This document shows, piece by piece, positions 39,956 through 47,061 of a DNA stretch of 64,000 bases. The notes under the pieces were generated by a model. The model saw only the letters and a list, made by a program, of their open reading frames with translations, made no database searches and was not told where the DNA came from. This DNA comes from Faecalibacterium prausnitzii (lineage in GTDB: Bacteria; Bacillota; Clostridia; Oscillospirales; Ruminococcaceae). The stretch is from contig NZ_PXUP01000004.1 of the NCBI RefSeq assembly GCF_003324185.1, positions 1 to 64,000 on the forward strand, in the 5' to 3' direction. The first letter of the stretch is position 1. Each line of letters begins with the position of its first letter. The translations under genes and the position numbers were made by a program.

Positions 39956-40836
39956 AACTGCCCCCAAAACAGCGCGATTTGATGCGAGCTACTTTGGGGG
40001 CAGTCTGTTTGATATAAAAATATTTCACCATAGCCCCGCATAGAAAGGTTCTTGTAAACGCGTCCATACGGGATTATCTGTGCAAGAATGATTTCTCTCG
40101 TCTCTCCAAAGCTTCCAGAAAGCAGAGCAAAAAGAAAGTCCAACAATCATTCGAGTCAACGAACAATTCTGAGATTTTCAATGTCTCCGGCGGGGCAACC
40201 CCATACTCTGCCTTCAGAAAGGGATTTTAAGTCCCTCGTGTCTGCCAGCCTTCGGCAAAGTCGATTTTCGTTCGTTGTATCGTTTGATTTCTCATTGCGA
40301 GAGAGATTTTTCCTTCGCGAGCGAGAGGGATTCGCACTTTTTTGATAAGATGATAGTATCACATTTTCCGCCCTATGTCAATCATGTAAAATTGTTTCAT
40401 CTTGTCATGCTTGATCTTCGGAGCGTCCGGGACCCGGGGCTTCCGCCGGGAGCGTTCGCCCTGCCCAGATGCGCTCCTCAGGGTGGGTGTGATGAGGGGT
40501 TGGATGAGGGGTTGATAGGTGTATTGATGGACGGAATTGAATGATGTGTTATTGCTAATTTTTTGAAGAGGACTTTTGAAGCGATTGGGGTTGTTTTGAT
40601 GTGCTGACAGATTTGATTACTTCTTATCTGTGATGTTCATTGCTGTTTATTTGCTCAGTCCCTACTTTGCCTGTGCTCTCCCCTGCCCTTCTTTTACTAT
40701 AATTTCACCGGATGTGATTTTGGACTATGGAATAAAAACAGGTATATTATTGTTCGATACAAAACAATTATTCTATTATAAAACCGCATGGATGAGATTT
40801 TGTAACTACACACACACGGTTTAAGGTTTTGAATGA
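39956..40836. other. Gene-poor transition between core chromosome and AT-rich island
   Basis: No convincing gene is seen over about 880 bases. The stretch contains a tRNA-Leu-like fragment (40190-40256), a GC-rich patch near 40430-40520 that is not clearly coding, and AT-rich DNA beyond 40540. Composition changes from GC-rich to AT-rich here, which suggests the left junction of inserted DNA. Confidence 0.5.
40190..40256 (-). pseudogene. tRNA-Leu(UAA)-like remnant
   Basis: On the minus strand GCCGAAG, GGCAGACACG and the anticodon stem-loop AGGGACTTAAAATCCCT (40236-40220; anticodon TAA) match a leucine tRNA. The D-arm is shortened by several bases, and the usual T-arm GTTCRA and a matching acceptor 3' end are missing. 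It looks like a degenerate or chimeric tRNA copy, such as is left at attachment sites. Confidence 0.45.
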
Positions 40837-40929
40837 TTATTTTAGGTTTGTACGGGTCACGTCCGTGCTCACGCCGCTAGCTAGTAGCTTTTTCAGCACG
40901 TCCTCTGCTTTGGCTTTTTTCGAATGTGA
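40837..40929 (-). pseudogene. Short in-frame coding-like remnant after abiH
   Basis: Directly after the abiH stop TAA, the same frame stays open for about 29 more codons, encoding a charged helix (KKAKAEDVLKKLLASG, then VSTDVTRTNLK) and ending at TAA (40837-40839). No start codon or ribosome site precedes it. It resembles the C-terminal tail of another protein, joined at the island edge. Origin unknown. Confidence 0.35.
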
Positions 40930-42183
40930 TTACTTTTTCCATTTAGAGATACAGTCGTCTATACTTGGATATAATTCGTAGTTACTACAGCCCAGTTCTT
41001 TCATCACGATTTCTTTCCACTTCTTATCCATATCTCCAAAATAAGAAATATGCCACTTTGCATCTTCTGTTCTGGGAGCAACCTTTACAGAATCTAATTC
41101 CTTCTTTGTAGGTTTACCAAGCATCTTCAGAAATTCTTTTCTATATCGCTCGTTTCTCACACATTGTTCTCTTTGAAGCCTTCTTTCCATGGCATCTTTA
41201 GCGCTTTCACTCGCTGTATTGTGATATCCAATCTCATCAATTACGAACTGCATTCTCTGCGTCAGTTCATATAGTTCGTCCCCTGTCTCAAGTACATTTG
41301 ATTTTTCTTCAGCATTGTCTACAGACGGAACTTTACTGCTTCTCATCAGAAAATCAAAATACTCAATATCCACAGGACTCATCGACTGTCCCAAGACATA
41401 GATATTTTTAATTTCCTCACATATTACGCCATTCATTGCTAAGAAACAGCACAGAATCTGAATATTGTTCTGACAGTGCTTATCTGTTTCATATAGAATT
41501 TTATCTACAAGGTGTAATCCAAAAAAGCGTCCGCCTATTTTCGCAAGCATCGGCTCAGGTTCTTGCGGATGCCGATTATGTCCAAAAACAATGGATTTCT
41601 TGTCTGTTGCCTCCCCATGTATATGGATTTCTCTCATTTCATTGACGCCAAAGCGTTTCTGAAGAGTATCGGTATAATTAAAATTAATGAACACGCAATT
41701 ATCTCCAAAGCAATATCCTGCATCCTCCTCTGTAATAGAAATTGTTGCAATCCATCCACAAAAAGCCTCTGTTAAAATTCTTTTTGCATTGCGAATCGAC
41801 CTCCGCATATCTTTTAGATTCCTTCTCTCTTTTCCAAAGAAAAGATTGATTCGTTCTGTATCGATATTAGCCAATGAGCTTTCAAAGTTATTCCAAAATT
41901 CATTATCGAGTTCGCCCGGATCAAATGGATCTCCGTAAATCAATTCTACATCCGAGCATTCTTTGACCGTACCGTCTGAACTGATATACTTGCGCTTTCT
42001 GATATGAAGTTTTTTTAAAATCTCATTCAAGTGTTCATGGTAATACGTCTGAAAATCCGCATAAGATGTATTCAGTCCTTGCCACCTGTCAAACCCGTTT
42101 CCAATAATTATAATTGTATCTATTGTGGGTGTAGGAAGTTTTTTAGTAGGTTTTTTCTTTTTTCTAAAAATCATCTCATTCAC
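40930..42183 (-). CDS. AbiH family abortive-infection protein
   Basis: A 417-aa protein with the AbiH signature set: IIIIGNGFD (residues 24-32), WxxGLNTSYxDF, FINFNYTDTLQ (about 164-174), EIHIHGEATDKK and IVFGHNR, and later VLGQSMSPVDIEYF. AbiH was first found as a lactococcal phage abortive-infection factor; its biochemical activity is not settled. Composition is AT-rich, unlike the core genes. The start may be GTG 42183 or ATG 42174, each with a weak ribosome site. It lies 228 bp after a DUF4062 gene on the same strand, within a likely defence island. Confidence 0.88.
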   Translation of the reverse strand: MNEMIFRKKKKPTKKLPTPTIDTIIIIGNGFDRWQGLNTSYADFQTYYHEHLNEILKKLHIRKRKYISSDGTVKECSDVELIYGDPFDPGELDNEFWNNFESSLANIDTERINLFFGKERRNLKDMRRSIRNAKRILTEAFCGWIATISITEEDAGYCFGDNCVFINFNYTDTLQKRFGVNEMREIHIHGEATDKKSIVFGHNRHPQEPEPMLAKIGGRFFGLHLVDKILYETDKHCQNNIQILCCFLAMNGVICEEIKNIYVLGQSMSPVDIEYFDFLMRSSKVPSVDNAEEKSNVLETGDELYELTQRMQFVIDEIGYHNTASESAKDAMERRLQREQCVRNERYRKEFLKMLGKPTKKELDSVKVAPRTEDAKWHISYFGDMDKKWKEIVMKELGCSNYELYPSIDDCISKWKK

Positions 42184-42411
42184 TTCTTTCTTAACTGCGT
42201 TTCATTCTTATCCTTTTCCAAAAAAACACAGGGTCAAATCCAAAATATTTAATAAAATGATCAAGTTTTTGTTTTCCTGATAGTTTATTGTATCGTGTTT
42301 GTCGGATTAGCCCACCATGTATTGTCTTTCGTTCTTGGCATAGACGGTAGCCTCTTTTCTCTTTATAGTTCGTTGATTATATTATTGTATAGTTATGAAT
42401 ACCAGTTCTTC

Positions 42412-43716
42412 TCATTCAACTTCTACAGTAATATCCTGCTTAATTACCTCAGCATATTCATTACAGATTATTTCACATTTAACAGTAAACTGCCCCGCCC
42501 GTGTTGGTAAAACACACACGCCATAAATGCAATCAGTATCTTTATGCCTTACTTCATTTTTGTCAAACAGAATCTCACCCGGCAAAATGGACACCACCTC
42601 ATTCATATCCGCAGGATCCATCAAATCAGCTATATCTTCTACTGTAATGAGTTCATCTAATGAGATAAATTTATTGTCATTTTCTTTAACACTTGCAATA
42701 TTCTTTGGATTTTCAAATCTTTTTCTCCAATTTCTATAAGCATCTTTTTCAAAGTGAATTGCCTCTTCATCACGATATTCAAGGAGTTCCCTTTCCGACA
42801 GGACCATCAAGTCATTTGGAAATGATAGTTTAACTCGTACTCCAGTGGCACGAGCATCTCCATCATTATGAACCCGAAAATATACAACAAAGCTATTCTC
42901 ATAGACATAACGCAACAGCCTCACTTCATCCTTGCTTTCATGAACCCATCGTCCTGCCCAGTCCTTATAATCGAGACCATTTTTTACATCTGTTGTAATA
43001 ATCGGTACAACTGTAAAATGTATTCCATTTGATGTCAGCCTTGTTCCTTCGTCATATATTTTTCCGTCTTCGTCACGCCCCGGTTGGATATCGACCCACA
43101 AATTGGGTTTTCTAAAGTTTTCCTTTTTCAAATCTGCATTTAGTGCTTCAAGTGTATGTACACGCTCCGTCAATCGCAATATCTCCGCATGGCTCTTATC
43201 AATATCAAAATCTGTAGTTCTAACCCAGCCAGGTCTTCTACCTCTTGTAACAGATTTGGATATTGATTGCGAAATCAACGACTCTAAATTATCTTTGTTT
43301 TTCCAGAATTTCACATAGCGACCTGAATTCTTAACTTTTTCCTTGAAAACATCCAACTTTTCTTTCTTTAACGGATCACTTTCATACTTGTCCGGTGCCA
43401 TACTCACACTTTTTTCAATAATAAAGGCTAAAACTGGAATGCCTTGTGATACAGCATAATCAAACTCTTTTTCTGTATAACTCCCCCCTGTCGTTTCCTC
43501 AATTGAGCCATATCTATTTCCAATTATCAAAATATAGTAATCAGAAGAATCAATAGCTTCTTTAATTATTTGCCATTGATCATCATCTGCTGCACTAAAC
43601 ATCTCCATCCCAATTGGAAACTGATTCATTGTTAAAATCGCGTGAATTGCAACATCACGTTCTTCCTTTAAATCCTCATATGTCGATGAAACAAAAAATT
43701 GGTATTTCTTTTCCAA
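42412..43716 (-). CDS. DUF4062 domain-containing protein
   Basis: A 434-aa protein. The N-terminal ~100 residues are DUF4062, a TIR-like fold: KYQFFVSSTYEDLKEERDVA, then DSSDYYILIIGNRYGS, then SYTEKEFDYAVSQGIPVLAFI. A coiled-coil region (about 190-205) and a C-terminal beta-rich domain follow, the latter resembling an immunoglobulin-like or sensor module. DUF4062 often occurs in stand-alone or STAND-ATPase defence proteins. The start is TTG 43716 with GGAGG 9 nt upstream. It is AT-rich and flanked by AbiH and AlbA_2 genes. Confidence 0.85.
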   Translation of the reverse strand: MEKKYQFFVSSTYEDLKEERDVAIHAILTMNQFPIGMEMFSAADDDQWQIIKEAIDSSDYYILIIGNRYGSIEETTGGSYTEKEFDYAVSQGIPVLAFIIEKSVSMAPDKYESDPLKKEKLDVFKEKVKNSGRYVKFWKNKDNLESLISQSISKSVTRGRRPGWVRTTDFDIDKSHAEILRLTERVHTLEALNADLKKENFRKPNLWVDIQPGRDEDGKIYDEGTRLTSNGIHFTVVPIITTDVKNGLDYKDWAGRWVHESKDEVRLLRYVYENSFVVYFRVHNDGDARATGVRVKLSFPNDLMVLSERELLEYRDEEAIHFEKDAYRNWRKRFENPKNIASVKENDNKFISLDELITVEDIADLMDPADMNEVVSILPGEILFDKNEVRHKDTDCIYGVCVLPTRAGQFTVKCEIICNEYAEVIKQDITVEVE

Positions 43717-44032
43717 AAGTATTAACCTCCGCTCTTTTTCGCATTTCTACGAATTATGCCTACAAGTGCAATCACAGTCTACTGACCATTAAGACGAGGT
43801 ATAAAGCTTTAAAAAGACTATATTTCCTATACATTATAGCCCAAACACAATAGGCTGTTTCTTTTTTTGCAATCCCTACATCTTTTAGGTAGTACCCATT
43901 CACGATTTTTAGGTACACCTGTCGACTTGACGAAATAACAGCCTCTTGTCCGTAGTCAACACAACTCCTTCTAATTTCATCATTTTCATTCAGACATTCA
44001 CTTCACAATCCTCTTATATTCACCAATTACTT
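43717..44032. other. AT-rich gap with a 93-bp inverted-end segment
   Basis: No gene is seen. AGGCTGTT (43852-43859) and AACAGCCT (43937-43944) form inverted ends of a 93-bp segment, which may be a small non-autonomous element or a terminator structure for the AlbA_2 transcript. Confidence 0.35.
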
Positions 44033-45211
44033 TTACTTCCGTATTCCCAGCGCGTACTTCGTCATTCTAACGCTGTCTTCTTTTCCCCTTGCAAGCTGCT
44101 CATCATCCAAAATATTACGGATTTCAATTGGTGCACACACAATTTCGTTTCTATCAACCTTGGTCGGCGCATTCATTCCAAACCGATTCATCTCATCATT
44201 CCATAGACCCTTGCACCCGTAGATTGAAACGCAAACATACATCGGAACCGCACGATTCAGCTTCTTATACATTTCAGCAGTATCATCAAGCAGTTTTTGT
44301 AATTCCTCCCAAAATTCAAGTGTATTCAACCAGCGTTCTATTTTTAAATGTGAATCATTTTTATTTGTTTCAAACACATACAGATTCATTCTCAATTCAA
44401 CTGTACCATTGTTGAATATCTGAAGATGCTCATCATCATATTCTTCGTATTTATAATTTGGAAAATATACGCCGTCCACATTGGGAACTGGTCGATCTTG
44501 TACGATTCCATTAAATAGACTTTCAAATATCAGTTTCCGGTTTCTGGCAAGATCATACATTGAAAGAGCATCGCTTTGATTTTTGAAAGTAGCCGGAATC
44601 AAATGCACAAGAGCAAATGGGTGCGCTGTTTCTCCCTTATAATCATTTAATCGCGATTTTCTAAAAGATTTAATATCCTCTGCCAACATTGCTGCATTTA
44701 AAAAAGCACTTTGCATTTCTGTATAACTCATCGCCTGTTTTTTATTCCCATGCCTTATATAGAAGTGGAAATCTCCTTCCGGTTCTTCCGTAATGTACGG
44801 CTTATATAATCCACGTTGGATATGCAGAATTACTACATATTTTTCGTCATTCAGCCTTACAAAGGTAAATTCCACTTCCGGCATCACAGGTCGTATAGCC
44901 TGCAATTCGTTTCTTCGATCCAGTTCAAAACGATCTGGATTAGATAGCGCAATCCCTACCAATGCCCCTGCCATACCAGCATCTTCTCCGATACCATAGA
45001 AGATATATCCACCGTCTGCGTTTGCAAAAGAACACACATCGCTTCTAAATTCGGCTTGTTTTTCCTTCTTTTTGTTTTTATCTTCACATTTAAACGGTGC
45101 AAAATCAACCTTATAGTCAATAAAATTGTTTTCCCGATACGCATCATTATGAAGGAGTACTTTCAGGTCTTCTTCTGTCCAGTCTTGAAAATTTTTATTA
45201 TTTATTTTCAT
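44033..45211 (-). CDS. Schlafen AlbA_2 domain protein
   Basis: A 392-aa protein. The N-terminal AlbA_2 (Schlafen-like, divergent AAA_4) domain is seen in WTEEDLKVLLHNDAYRENNFIDYK, spanning residues 12-35, followed by SDVCSFANADGGYIFYGIGED and IRPVMPEVEFTFVRL. The C-terminal ~200 residues are not recognised. Such proteins act as nucleic-acid-binding or nuclease-like parts of defence and regulatory systems. GGAGAATTATCC precedes ATG 45211. It is the first gene of the AT-rich minus-strand island. Confidence 0.85.
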   Translation of the reverse strand: MKINNKNFQDWTEEDLKVLLHNDAYRENNFIDYKVDFAPFKCEDKNKKKEKQAEFRSDVCSFANADGGYIFYGIGEDAGMAGALVGIALSNPDRFELDRRNELQAIRPVMPEVEFTFVRLNDEKYVVILHIQRGLYKPYITEEPEGDFHFYIRHGNKKQAMSYTEMQSAFLNAAMLAEDIKSFRKSRLNDYKGETAHPFALVHLIPATFKNQSDALSMYDLARNRKLIFESLFNGIVQDRPVPNVDGVYFPNYKYEEYDDEHLQIFNNGTVELRMNLYVFETNKNDSHLKIERWLNTLEFWEELQKLLDDTAEMYKKLNRAVPMYVCVSIYGCKGLWNDEMNRFGMNAPTKVDRNEIVCAPIEIRNILDDEQLARGKEDSVRMTKYALGIRK

Positions 45212-45540
45212 GGATAATTCTCCGTTAAATCAACTCATATGTTATTGCCTACAATCTATAAAGAAACATTTTTAACTTCCTCATTTTGTAATCTTTATAT
45301 ACTTTTGTCCAAAACACTCCCGCCTTTATAGCCCTCAGAATATCGTTTTTACGCTCTTTCGCTTCTTACATCCAGCTACTATATCAAACATTGCATGCAG
45401 TCACTACGTAAGGGCACGAAAAGTTTCAAATATTAAAGCCGTGAGAGTTTTCCCACGGCTCAAATATAATCCTTTAAAAATTAGTTTTCAAGGGCGCAAG
45501 TGAAATATACATCAACCTATATATTGTATCAAGGTTGCGT
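45212..45540. other. Intergenic region holding the terminator of the polysaccharide cluster
   Basis: AGCCGTG (45437-45443) pairs with CACGGCT (45454-45460) and on the minus strand is followed by TTAATATTT, which would end glmM and the cluster. The rest is AT-rich without an evident gene. Confidence 0.6.
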
Positions 45541-46926
45541 TCAGTCAGCGTAGCCCTTGTTCTTGATGACCTCCACGACCTGAGAGACATACTTCTGGCA
45601 GGTATCATGGTCAGGGGCTTCCACCATCACGCGAACGACAGGCTCGGTGCCAGACTCACGCACCAGAATGCGGCCGGTATCGCCCAAAGCCTCGGCCACT
45701 GCCTTGACGGCCTCCTGCACTGCCGGGTCGTTCTGCGCAGCCTTTTTATCGGTGACGCGGACATTCTCCAGAACCTGCGGATAGATCTTCAGCGGCTCAG
45801 CCAGCTTGCTCATGGGCAGTTTTTTTGCCAGCATGACCTCCATCATCTTCAGGCTGGTCAGGATGCCATCGCCGGTGCTTGCGTACTTGCTGAAGATAAT
45901 ATGACCGCTCTGCTCACCGCCAATACGGCAGCCGTTTTTCGCCATGTACTCATAGACGTACTTATCGCCCACAGCAGTTTTAGCGTAGCCGATCCCCTGC
46001 TCATCAAAAGCCTTGTACAGACCAAAGTTGGACATAACCGTGGTGACCACGGTATTGGTCAGGAGTTTTCCACGCTCCTTCATGTAGCAACCATAGATGT
46101 ACAGGATATGGTCACCAGTGATGACATTGCCCTTCTCGTCCACGCACAGGCAGCGGTCAGCGTCGCCATCGAAGGCAAAGCCGACATCCAGACCGTTCTC
46201 TACCACGAACTTCTGCAGACCCTCAATATGAGTAGAGCCAGCATTGTTGTTGATGTTCAGACCATTCGGCTTGTTGTTGATGACGTAGGTATCCGCACCC
46301 AGAGCATCAAAAACAGACTTAGCGATATTCCAGCTTGCACCGTTGGCGCAGTCCAGACCAACCTTCACGCCCTTGAAGGAGTAGATGCCCAGGCTGATCA
46401 GGTAGCCCATGTAGCGGTTACGGCCTGCCACATAGTCCACGGTGCAGCCGATATGCTCACGGTGAGCGAAGGGCAGCTCCGGCCAGTCCTTGTCGAACAC
46501 ATGGAGTTTTCCGTCGATGTAATCCTCGACTAACAGTAAGATTTCCTCCGGCATCTTTTCGCCGTAGCAGTCGATCAGCTTGATGCCGTTATCGTAGTAT
46601 GGATTGTGGCTGGCAGAGATCATGATACCGCAGTCAAAGTCATCCACGCGGGCGATATAAGCCACGGAAGGGGTGGTCGTGACGTGCAGCAGGTAGGCGT
46701 CTGCGCCGGAAGCAGTCAGGCCTGCGACCAAACTGTACTCGAACATATAGGAGCTGCGACGGGTATCCTTGCCAATGACGATGCGGGCGGGCTCGTTGTT
46801 GCCGTTGCGCTCACGCAGTGCGTTGTAGTACCAGCCCAGAAAACGGCCAACCTTGTAGGCATGGTCGGCGGTCAGATCAATACCAGCTTCACCACGGAAG
46901 CCATCGGTCCCAAAATACTTTCCCAT
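45541..46926 (-). CDS. glmM: Phosphoglucosamine mutase
   Basis: A 461-aa alpha-D-phosphohexomutase. The start FGTDGFRGEAG, the catalytic serine loop MISASHNPYYDNGIK (phospho-Ser), the metal loop FDGDADRCL and the sugar-recognition GGEQSGH all fit, with the phosphate-binding RESGTEPVVRVMVE at the C-terminus. It converts GlcN-6-P to GlcN-1-P, feeding UDP-GlcNAc, the substrate of WecB upstream. ATG 46926 is preferred over an in-frame TTG. It is GC-rich like the core genome and closes the cluster. Confidence 0.92.
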   Translation of the reverse strand: MGKYFGTDGFRGEAGIDLTADHAYKVGRFLGWYYNALRERNGNNEPARIVIGKDTRRSSYMFEYSLVAGLTASGADAYLLHVTTTPSVAYIARVDDFDCGIMISASHNPYYDNGIKLIDCYGEKMPEEILLLVEDYIDGKLHVFDKDWPELPFAHREHIGCTVDYVAGRNRYMGYLISLGIYSFKGVKVGLDCANGASWNIAKSVFDALGADTYVINNKPNGLNINNNAGSTHIEGLQKFVVENGLDVGFAFDGDADRCLCVDEKGNVITGDHILYIYGCYMKERGKLLTNTVVTTVMSNFGLYKAFDEQGIGYAKTAVGDKYVYEYMAKNGCRIGGEQSGHIIFSKYASTGDGILTSLKMMEVMLAKKLPMSKLAEPLKIYPQVLENVRVTDKKAAQNDPAVQEAVKAVAEALGDTGRILVRESGTEPVVRVMVEAPDHDTCQKYVSQVVEVIKNKGYAD

Positions 46927-47061
46927 TATAGTTTTTTCCTCATCCAAAGAGTGAATTAATGAGTATATGCTTTAGCCGAGAAAAGTTCTCGTTGCCTGCT
47001 GCTCACCACGAAGAGGTAGCACACTTAAGCAGCACAGCCATGCTGACGCATGGCCGCAATC

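Follow-up and report, generated by a model that had tools for sequence, protein, structure and literature searches.

Three described lines of phage defense come closest to the genes considered here. The DUF4062 effector class has been introduced as Swarozyc in a May 2026 preprint, which describes its main protein, KpSwz, as a TIR-like hydrolase of nicotinamide adenine dinucleotide (NADase) that is triggered by the phage portal, binds it through a C-terminal domain of helix-turn-helix (HTH)/winged fold and halts infected cells by depleting NAD+ (PMC13174449). AbiH inhibited Vansinderenvirus in S. thermophilus, and the source lists its mode of action as unknown (PMC12322248). Several Schlafen-linked prokaryotic systems are described as anti-phage modules that cleave transfer RNA (tRNA; PMC12839542), and the acidic triad of SLFN13 consists of E205, E210, and D248 (PMC5862951). 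Relatives of all three families lie side by side in the DNA analyzed here, a stretch of 64,000 nucleotides from Faecalibacterium prausnitzii (contig NZ_PXUP01000004.1, positions 1 to 64,000; hereafter the window): an AbiH gene (protein P0001), a DUF4062 gene (P0002), and a SLFN_AlbA_2 gene (P0003).

We consider it likely that these three genes are cargo, carried in an exchangeable slot where a polysaccharide cluster ends, and that they act separately; most likely they are separate abortive-infection genes. An earlier note, made from the letters of the window, had described a cluster of the three families on one strand, spaced by 228 and 316 bp and embedded in AT-rich DNA. Open reading frames (ORFs) and Pfam bear out all three assignments, with scores above the curated cut-offs (PF14253, 127.5 bits against 30.9; PF13271, 97.3 against 24.7; PF04326, 63.4 against 25.3), the ORF coordinates reproduce the spacing, and the GC content, taken in 1-kb steps, lies at 0.349-0.386 for the four between 41 and 45 kb and at 0.525-0.651 for the 39 that make up the first 39 kb.

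The borders of the slot can be delimited by comparison with congeners. Synteny of the window with its nearest congeners (G164, G175) stops at 39956-39957, and the DNA to the left of the AbiH gene belongs to a conserved block (Table 1). This side of the slot is marked by a small border gene, whose short, conserved protein begins MPRTKGSKN and in locus L082 ends VLKKLLASGVSADEILEKLK. In the window the border gene is present in two pieces that stand on either side of the AbiH gene: a 3' remnant, found in a search with the 108-residue border protein, which contains one internal stop and has DNA matches in eight other loci, and a 5' remnant, whose match in L113 lies where the border gene of that locus begins and for which tblastx gives a match in L112 (E 0.001). 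The opposite side is formed by a phosphosugar-mutase gene. In G164 (locus L092) both borders are present and enclose other cargo, the mutase match (45549-47003) and the stretch 40415-40922 each being 85% identical to the window. The border-gene family itself, e.g., L082 6484-6810, has 58 matches in 21 of the 31 genus genomes, with several copies in many of them; the protein shows a basic start, a coiled-coil-like middle, and a conserved tail, and has no Pfam match above cut-off.

What the congeners carry at this position differs from place to place. We studied 21 of the 58 border-gene matches, mostly the most similar ones, with L092 as the sole representative of the distant copies (most at ~45-59% identity); gene kinds were read by eye unless a profile match is given, and L118, at 2.2 kb, was too short. 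Mutase or polysaccharide genes are visible in 15 of these loci (L082, L092, L096, L101-L103, L106-L114), and neither kind was seen in L115-L117. The cargo is an AbiH gene in L082; a Pycsar TM gene with its cyclase (PADLOC PycC, E 1.6e-92) and an AbiE pair in L104; DUF4062, SEC-C, and a Pycsar-type cyclase in L111; an AAA ATPase with PADLOC matches in L092; RES and PLD genes in L113; a gene with a weak PycTM match in L096; and, further from the border gene, AlbA_2 and a caspase in L105. Cargo genes without a clear defense match occupy L103 (SEC-C), L102, L106, and L109, and no clear cargo is present in L107, L108, L110, L112, and L114, the last of which, with a mutase fragment beside its border gene, represents a nearly empty slot.

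Table 1. Features of the window, and of Blautia schinkii locus L032 where indicated.
Feature	Position	Strand	Details
Conserved block, MPRTKGSKN side of the slot	40095-40920		83.8% identical to L082 (G156)
3' remnant of the MPRTKGSKN border gene	40852-40935	minus	residues 77-104, 64% identity, E 1.8e-4
AbiH family gene (P0001)	40930-42183	minus	417 amino acids; PF14253 E 1.3e-36; PADLOC AbiH E 5.4e-18
5' remnant of the border gene (leader and first codons)	42323-42399	minus	DNA match to L113: 74%, 78 columns, E 1.3e-4
DUF4062 gene (P0002)	42412-43716	minus	434 amino acids, TTG start; PF13271 E 6e-28
SLFN_AlbA_2 gene (P0003)	44033-45211	minus	392 amino acids; PF04326 E 3.6e-17
Possible decayed HDV-like ribozyme	45364-45434	minus	between mutase gene and AlbA_2; model R1
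Terminator-like hairpin	45436-45461	minus	11 pairs; 3' of the mutase gene
Phosphosugar-mutase-type gene (named by eye)	45541-46947	minus	right border of the slot
HDV-F-prausnitzii ribozyme	46965-47033	minus	Rfam RF02682, 64.5 bits against a gathering score of 44; before the mutase gene
First ribozyme of L032	7897-7976		on one side of the DUF4062 gene
Second ribozyme of L032	9495-9580		on the other side of the DUF4062 gene

A second recurrent element of these loci is a ribozyme of the hepatitis delta virus (HDV)-like type. Going by the title of Passalacqua's 2017 article, the F. prausnitzii ribozyme reportedly neighbors such a mutase gene and has glucosamine 6-phosphate as a modulator, and the window copy, which precedes the mutase gene, has the setting that this title suggests; copies in the loci examined here, in contrast, also precede AbiH, Pycsar, AlbA_2, SEC-C, RES, and other genes and flank a DUF4062 gene of Blautia. 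Scanning 25 Faecalibacterium loci yielded 20 further RF02682 copies at the Rfam cut-off, distributed over 16 loci. The loci with copies are L082, L089, L090, L092, L095, L096, L101-L107, L109, L111, and L113. By a loose count, made without a null, all 21 copies have the start of a same-strand ORF of at least 80 residues within ~120 nt of their 3' end; with a strict choice of ORFs, 17 of the 21 head an ORF, compared to 11% of random positions and 27% of random intergenic ones. The genes that follow are clearly of defense type in four cases (AbiH in L082, PycTM in L104, AlbA_2 in L105, the AAA ATPase in L092), weakly or arguably so in three (L096, L102, RES in L113), and of sugar type or the border gene in five (the window, L101 twice, L109, L107); the other nine, those of L103 and L111 among them, have no family or show nothing beyond a SEC-C motif. 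Since the loci were chosen around border and mutase genes, these counts show what the ribozymes precede there, not how frequently they precede defense genes genome-wide.

The helices of the aligned copies show covariation, with 36 cells changed on both sides (12.4 in shuffles), a count that none of 500 shuffles reached; counted by pairs, five pairs have such changes, which 257 of 500 shuffles reach as well. Built from these 21 copies, a model recovered all of them from 42 sources (544,151 bases), together with two weaker matches in L092; in 53 other loci (622,695 bases) it gave two matches only, which flank a DUF4062 gene of Blautia schinkii L032. The first, which passes the Rfam cut-off, ends 24 nt upstream of this full-length DUF4062 relative; the second, below the cut-off, stands behind the gene and 131 nt before a gene with a RelA/SpoT domain. 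Another 51 loci (354,121 bases) contributed L161, L016 (identical in place to that of L111), and a weak match in L061. In L161, a viral-collection contig that had been fetched with a ribozyme pattern, the ribozyme is followed by a gene for 310 residues without a Pfam match above cut-off and then by an MPRTKGSKN gene. Within the window itself, the candidate between the mutase and AlbA_2 genes is the second of 13 matches of model R1 (8.7 bits, E 0.25), and its score alone is not significant because the next matches, which lie inside genes, reach 6.3 and 6.2 bits; Rfam at E <= 5 reported nothing for it, and the DNA flanking it aligns with L090 and L095 at their intact ribozymes.

A metabolite-dependent role has been proposed for one bacterial HDV-like ribozyme (PMC10919898); finding the ribozyme before unrelated genes, including immune ones, suggests that such a role is not general. 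By analogy to the ribozyme insulators of synthetic biology, it could be a natural insulator that gives the cargo messenger RNA (mRNA) a stable 5' end, and the variety of the genes behind it makes this role directly testable. Its conserved DNA of ~75 bp may in addition serve as homology for gene swapping; in the five loci with two ribozyme copies, both are repeated in one orientation. Tentatively, and with less than even confidence, we propose that gut Clostridia hold cassettes of a ribozyme plus a cargo gene, several of them immune, that are exchanged at the ends of polysaccharide clusters. Defense hotspots are already known; the novel part is the ribozyme-headed cargo, and the heading of genes of varied kinds, beyond the sugar-mutase gene, is new as far as our searches went.

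For P0002 the comparison with KpSwz is informative on both halves of the protein. Residues 2-189 match the KpSwz structure (PDB 10wc, E 2.4e-43), so that P0002 shares the TIR-like DUF4062 domain, the start of the stalk, and the conserved active-site Glu, whereas the phmmer match ends at residue 189 of 434 without similarity to the KpSwz AUX domain, and the C-terminal part is predicted to be beta-rich where KpSwz has its HTH/winged portal-binding domain. The AlphaFold model (mean predicted local distance difference test (pLDDT) 75.9, predicted template modeling score 0.47) comprises a TIR/NDT fold (3-161), a helix (172-199), and a beta-rich part (206-433), as the earlier note had anticipated for the C-terminus. 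In a fold search, model residues 3-161 retrieved DNPH1 (Z 14.1, root mean square deviation 2.2, 123 aligned residues) and plant and SARM1 TIR domains (Z ~11-12); Foldseek with the whole model listed GH3, integrin, and other beta-sandwich rows at low TM-score, and we call the modeled C-terminal part beta-sandwich-like, claiming neither a known nor a new fold. In alignment A2, which comprises P0002 and those 29 of 61 DUF4062 loci that match along most of it, E84, the candidate for the active-site Glu that the earlier note had singled out, is kept in 30 of 30 sequences. It pairs with an Ala in the PDB chain, consistent with the E97A construct used for cryo-electron microscopy; E84 would thus be the counterpart of KpSwz E97, and from the alignment we infer that it is catalytic. 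Two positions before it, at residue 82, 24 of the 30 sequences have E and the remaining 6 have Q. P0002 is accordingly a predicted TIR-like NADase whose effector probably works like Swarozyc, and since its C-terminal domain is unlike that of KpSwz, its trigger is probably another one, perhaps not the portal. It would thereby offer a second sensor type for this new NADase family.

In the genus, P0002 has matches in 5 of 31 genomes, including a DUF4062 gene in congener G162 (locus L021), and its own genome holds a second DUF4062 gene (G000:C68:128799-129323, L002) with another C-terminal part. The DUF4062 proteins of L034, L036, and L049 reach 749-762 residues through much larger C-terminal parts, which we take as further sensor or effector types. 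In L013 (7992-9335), from a Salmonella plasmid record, the relative stands as an extra gene among those of a P2-like prophage cluster, and P2-type phage families also appear among the neighbors of other relatives in a tally that gives no locus. In L012 (7995-9368), a Priestia megaterium plasmid, it lies near nucleotidyltransferase, ThiF, Mov34, and type I restriction genes, of which we take the first three to be a CBASS-like set. A tally of 139 of the 224 ORFs within 5 kb of 29 DUF4062 relatives, made with PADLOC and Pfam, found restriction-modification, mad, and caspase families, for which we claim no enrichment; among the 25 families listed, the commonest PADLOC family accounts for at most 3 and the commonest Pfam family for at most 5 of the 139.

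P0001 shares with the AbiH of lactic acid bacteria its matches to PF14253 and PADLOC AbiH and differs from it in sequence, with ~24-28% identity in the 15 plasmid matches listed. Eleven aligned AbiH proteins have invariant residues that include GNGFD, N169, Y170, H189, G190, G265, and D272. We compared a profile of 18 AbiH proteins (8 of 12 AbiH matches from other genomes, P0001, L082, L010, and 7 plasmid proteins; L128-L131 were left out for an odd start or as partial) with one of 12 SIR2-like proteins, taken from 22 matches. hhalign aligned them with scores of 42.0 (P 5.4e-5, probability 67%) and 48.9 (P 5.2e-6, probability 86%), compared to at most 17.5 for 59 column-shuffled controls, 12.5 for a reversed alignment, and 15.3 for DUF4062. 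The alignment spans the SIR2 stretches TTNYD, HG, and G-S-x-x-D/N, and the aligned Asn and His are catalytic residues in SIR2. The likeness to SIR2-like NADases such as ThsA, DSR2, and KomC covers the NYD, HG, and later G-S-x-x-D/N stretches, at 16% identity over 89 columns and with the N-terminal GNGFD outside the local alignment. One ORF, L131, scores with both families (AbiH, 31.1 bits at a cut-off of 30.9; SIR2_2, 23.4 in one search and 24.8 in another at a cut-off of 24.5). Judged by these profiles, AbiH is probably a divergent SIR2-like NADase, a link that we did not find in the open-licence literature searched, which is no proof of its absence in print. If true, it would provide a mechanism for an abortive-infection protein whose mode of action PMC12322248 gives as unknown.

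In P0003, PF04326 covers the N-terminal half; the C-terminal half has no Pfam match, and the protein has no PADLOC match, which sets it apart from the Schlafen/AlbA_2 families. A phmmer comparison with SLFN12 gives a weak match (E 0.03), and by eye E27 and D32 are spaced like E205 and E210 of SLFN13, with E76/D77 further on. The single-sequence structure model, at a mean pLDDT of 35, is unusable. The congener homologue in L105, located directly before a caspase-family gene and ~7.4 kb before the border gene, is 66% identical to P0003 and shortened, 14 residues and the C-terminal part being missing.

Taken together, the locus might operate as follows. Recombination within the shared borders, the phosphosugar-mutase gene on one side and the small MPRTKGSKN gene on the other, probably exchanges the cargo. 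Self-cleavage of an HDV-like ribozyme would free the mRNA that it heads from upstream transcription and leave it with a defined, structured 5' end, which could let a newly arrived gene work in any context. Upon infection, a phage component would bind the beta-rich C-terminal domain of the DUF4062 protein, and the signal, passed on via the helical stalk, would rearrange the TIR-like domains; NAD+ would then be hydrolyzed and the infected cell would stop. AbiH, as a probable divergent SIR2-like NADase, would lead to the same outcome, and AlbA_2 is probably a Schlafen-type RNase acting on tRNA. Surface-polysaccharide clusters may make phage receptors, and a hotspot of this kind at their ends would unite two layers of phage resistance in a single locus of a gut commensal that is common in humans.

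That the three genes instead constitute one new defense system, as their adjacency, common strand, and defense-linked families would allow, is highly improbable. The earlier note had considered both separate systems in one hotspot and parts of one, and had proposed a neighborhood check of co-occurrence. Within the limits that several contigs lack the full 8 kb per side and that the AlbA_2 profile is of limited sensitivity, none of the 61 DUF4062 loci obtained by an alignment scan of the GTDB collection has a detectable AbiH (profile of 18 proteins) or AlbA_2 gene (profile iterated from P0003), and phmmer found no P0001 or P0003 match among their ORFs. Family searches in 50 of the 61 genomes detected AbiH in 6 and AlbA_2 in 25, these matches being placed relative to the DUF4062 loci through the profile search only. 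Moreover, L082 has AbiH without the others, L111 has DUF4062 without AbiH or AlbA_2, and the AlbA_2 homologue of G160, the genome of L111, is located on another contig. We therefore rejected a three-gene system for want of co-occurrence and because of the border-gene remnants on both sides of AbiH. The defense ties of the three families are supported, and separate systems in one hotspot fit the finding that matching Faecalibacterium places hold defense-type genes among others. The further statement that no described system has this set holds for the trio as far as the literature was checked; it does not hold for the DUF4062 effector class, published as Swarozyc (PMC13174449).

Two other explanations concern the function of the cargo. 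It is unlikely that some of the trio is cargo in decay that no longer functions. In favor of this reading, the border gene is broken, the ribozyme before AlbA_2 may have decayed, the AlbA_2 homologue of L105 is shortened, and promoter-like sites exceed shuffles by only about two standard deviations (26 found versus 17.7 +/- 3.8); against it, each of the three ORFs is open across its family domain, and the DUF4062 protein keeps its Glu. The position at the end of a polysaccharide cluster would also suit genes that belong to the sugar cluster and serve polysaccharide regulation or stress, not phage defense; we regard this as quite unlikely, given that comparable places in congeners hold Pycsar, AbiE, and AbiH genes and that DUF4062 relatives also occur elsewhere, e.g., near restriction genes (L012) and in a P2-like prophage (L013). 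The preferred reading, separately acting cargo genes in an exchangeable slot, has to accommodate several findings that weigh against it. L104 and L105 have no sugar-cluster genes within 10 kb, slots also hold genes without a link to defense (VanZ-like, PEP-utilizer), and no exchange enzyme was identified in the slot of the window. The ribozyme heads genes of many kinds and is not defense-specific; it is missing in 4 of the 17 border-gene loci (L082, L092, L096, L101-L114), namely L108, L110, L112, and L114, and neither Rfam nor model R1 detected an intact copy before AbiH, DUF4062, or AlbA_2 in the window. The C-terminal difference from KpSwz makes the portal doubtful as the trigger of P0002. 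The hhalign probability of the AbiH-SIR2 link is only 67-86%, a smaller first comparison gave 18% (P 0.0014), and no significant match appeared when the AbiH profile was run against PDB, the best sirtuin being FAM118B (E 0.63 and 1).

The surroundings of the slot were named by eye. To the left of the trio lie ABC-transporter genes, among which a GldG-like gene has a match at E <= 1e-40 in 29 of the 31 genus genomes; to the right follow polysaccharide-type genes, the mutase gene being the first. A reading of this right flank as a single core glmM is not supported, since the own genome holds three copies of the mutase gene at 97-100% identity; a mutase homologue of 45-46% identity (E <= 1e-100) is present in 21 of 31 genomes listed, the own genome not being among them. 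The hairpin 3' of the mutase gene is weak evidence alone, because five terminator-like hairpins were found versus 3.9 expected in shuffles.

Among 148 family genomes, the own genome included, matches at E <= 1e-5 are rare: P0002 has 3, P0003 has 4, and P0001 has 2. Phage records contained no match to P0001 or P0003 and two weak ones to P0002. Scans of viral contigs with P0001 and P0002 found no relative, and that with P0003 found one contig with residues 1-173 at 90% identity. In this contig (L011, 151-1167) the homologue ends at residue 173 and is followed by unrelated sequence and phage-like genes; the join may be a true fusion or an assembly chimera. Finally, between the AlbA_2 and DUF4062 genes of the window (~43850-43920, minus strand), one frame reads PKNREWVLPKRCRDCKKRNSLLC, which by eye resembles the zinc-ribbon-like start of the AbiH protein of L120 and is probably a gene remnant.

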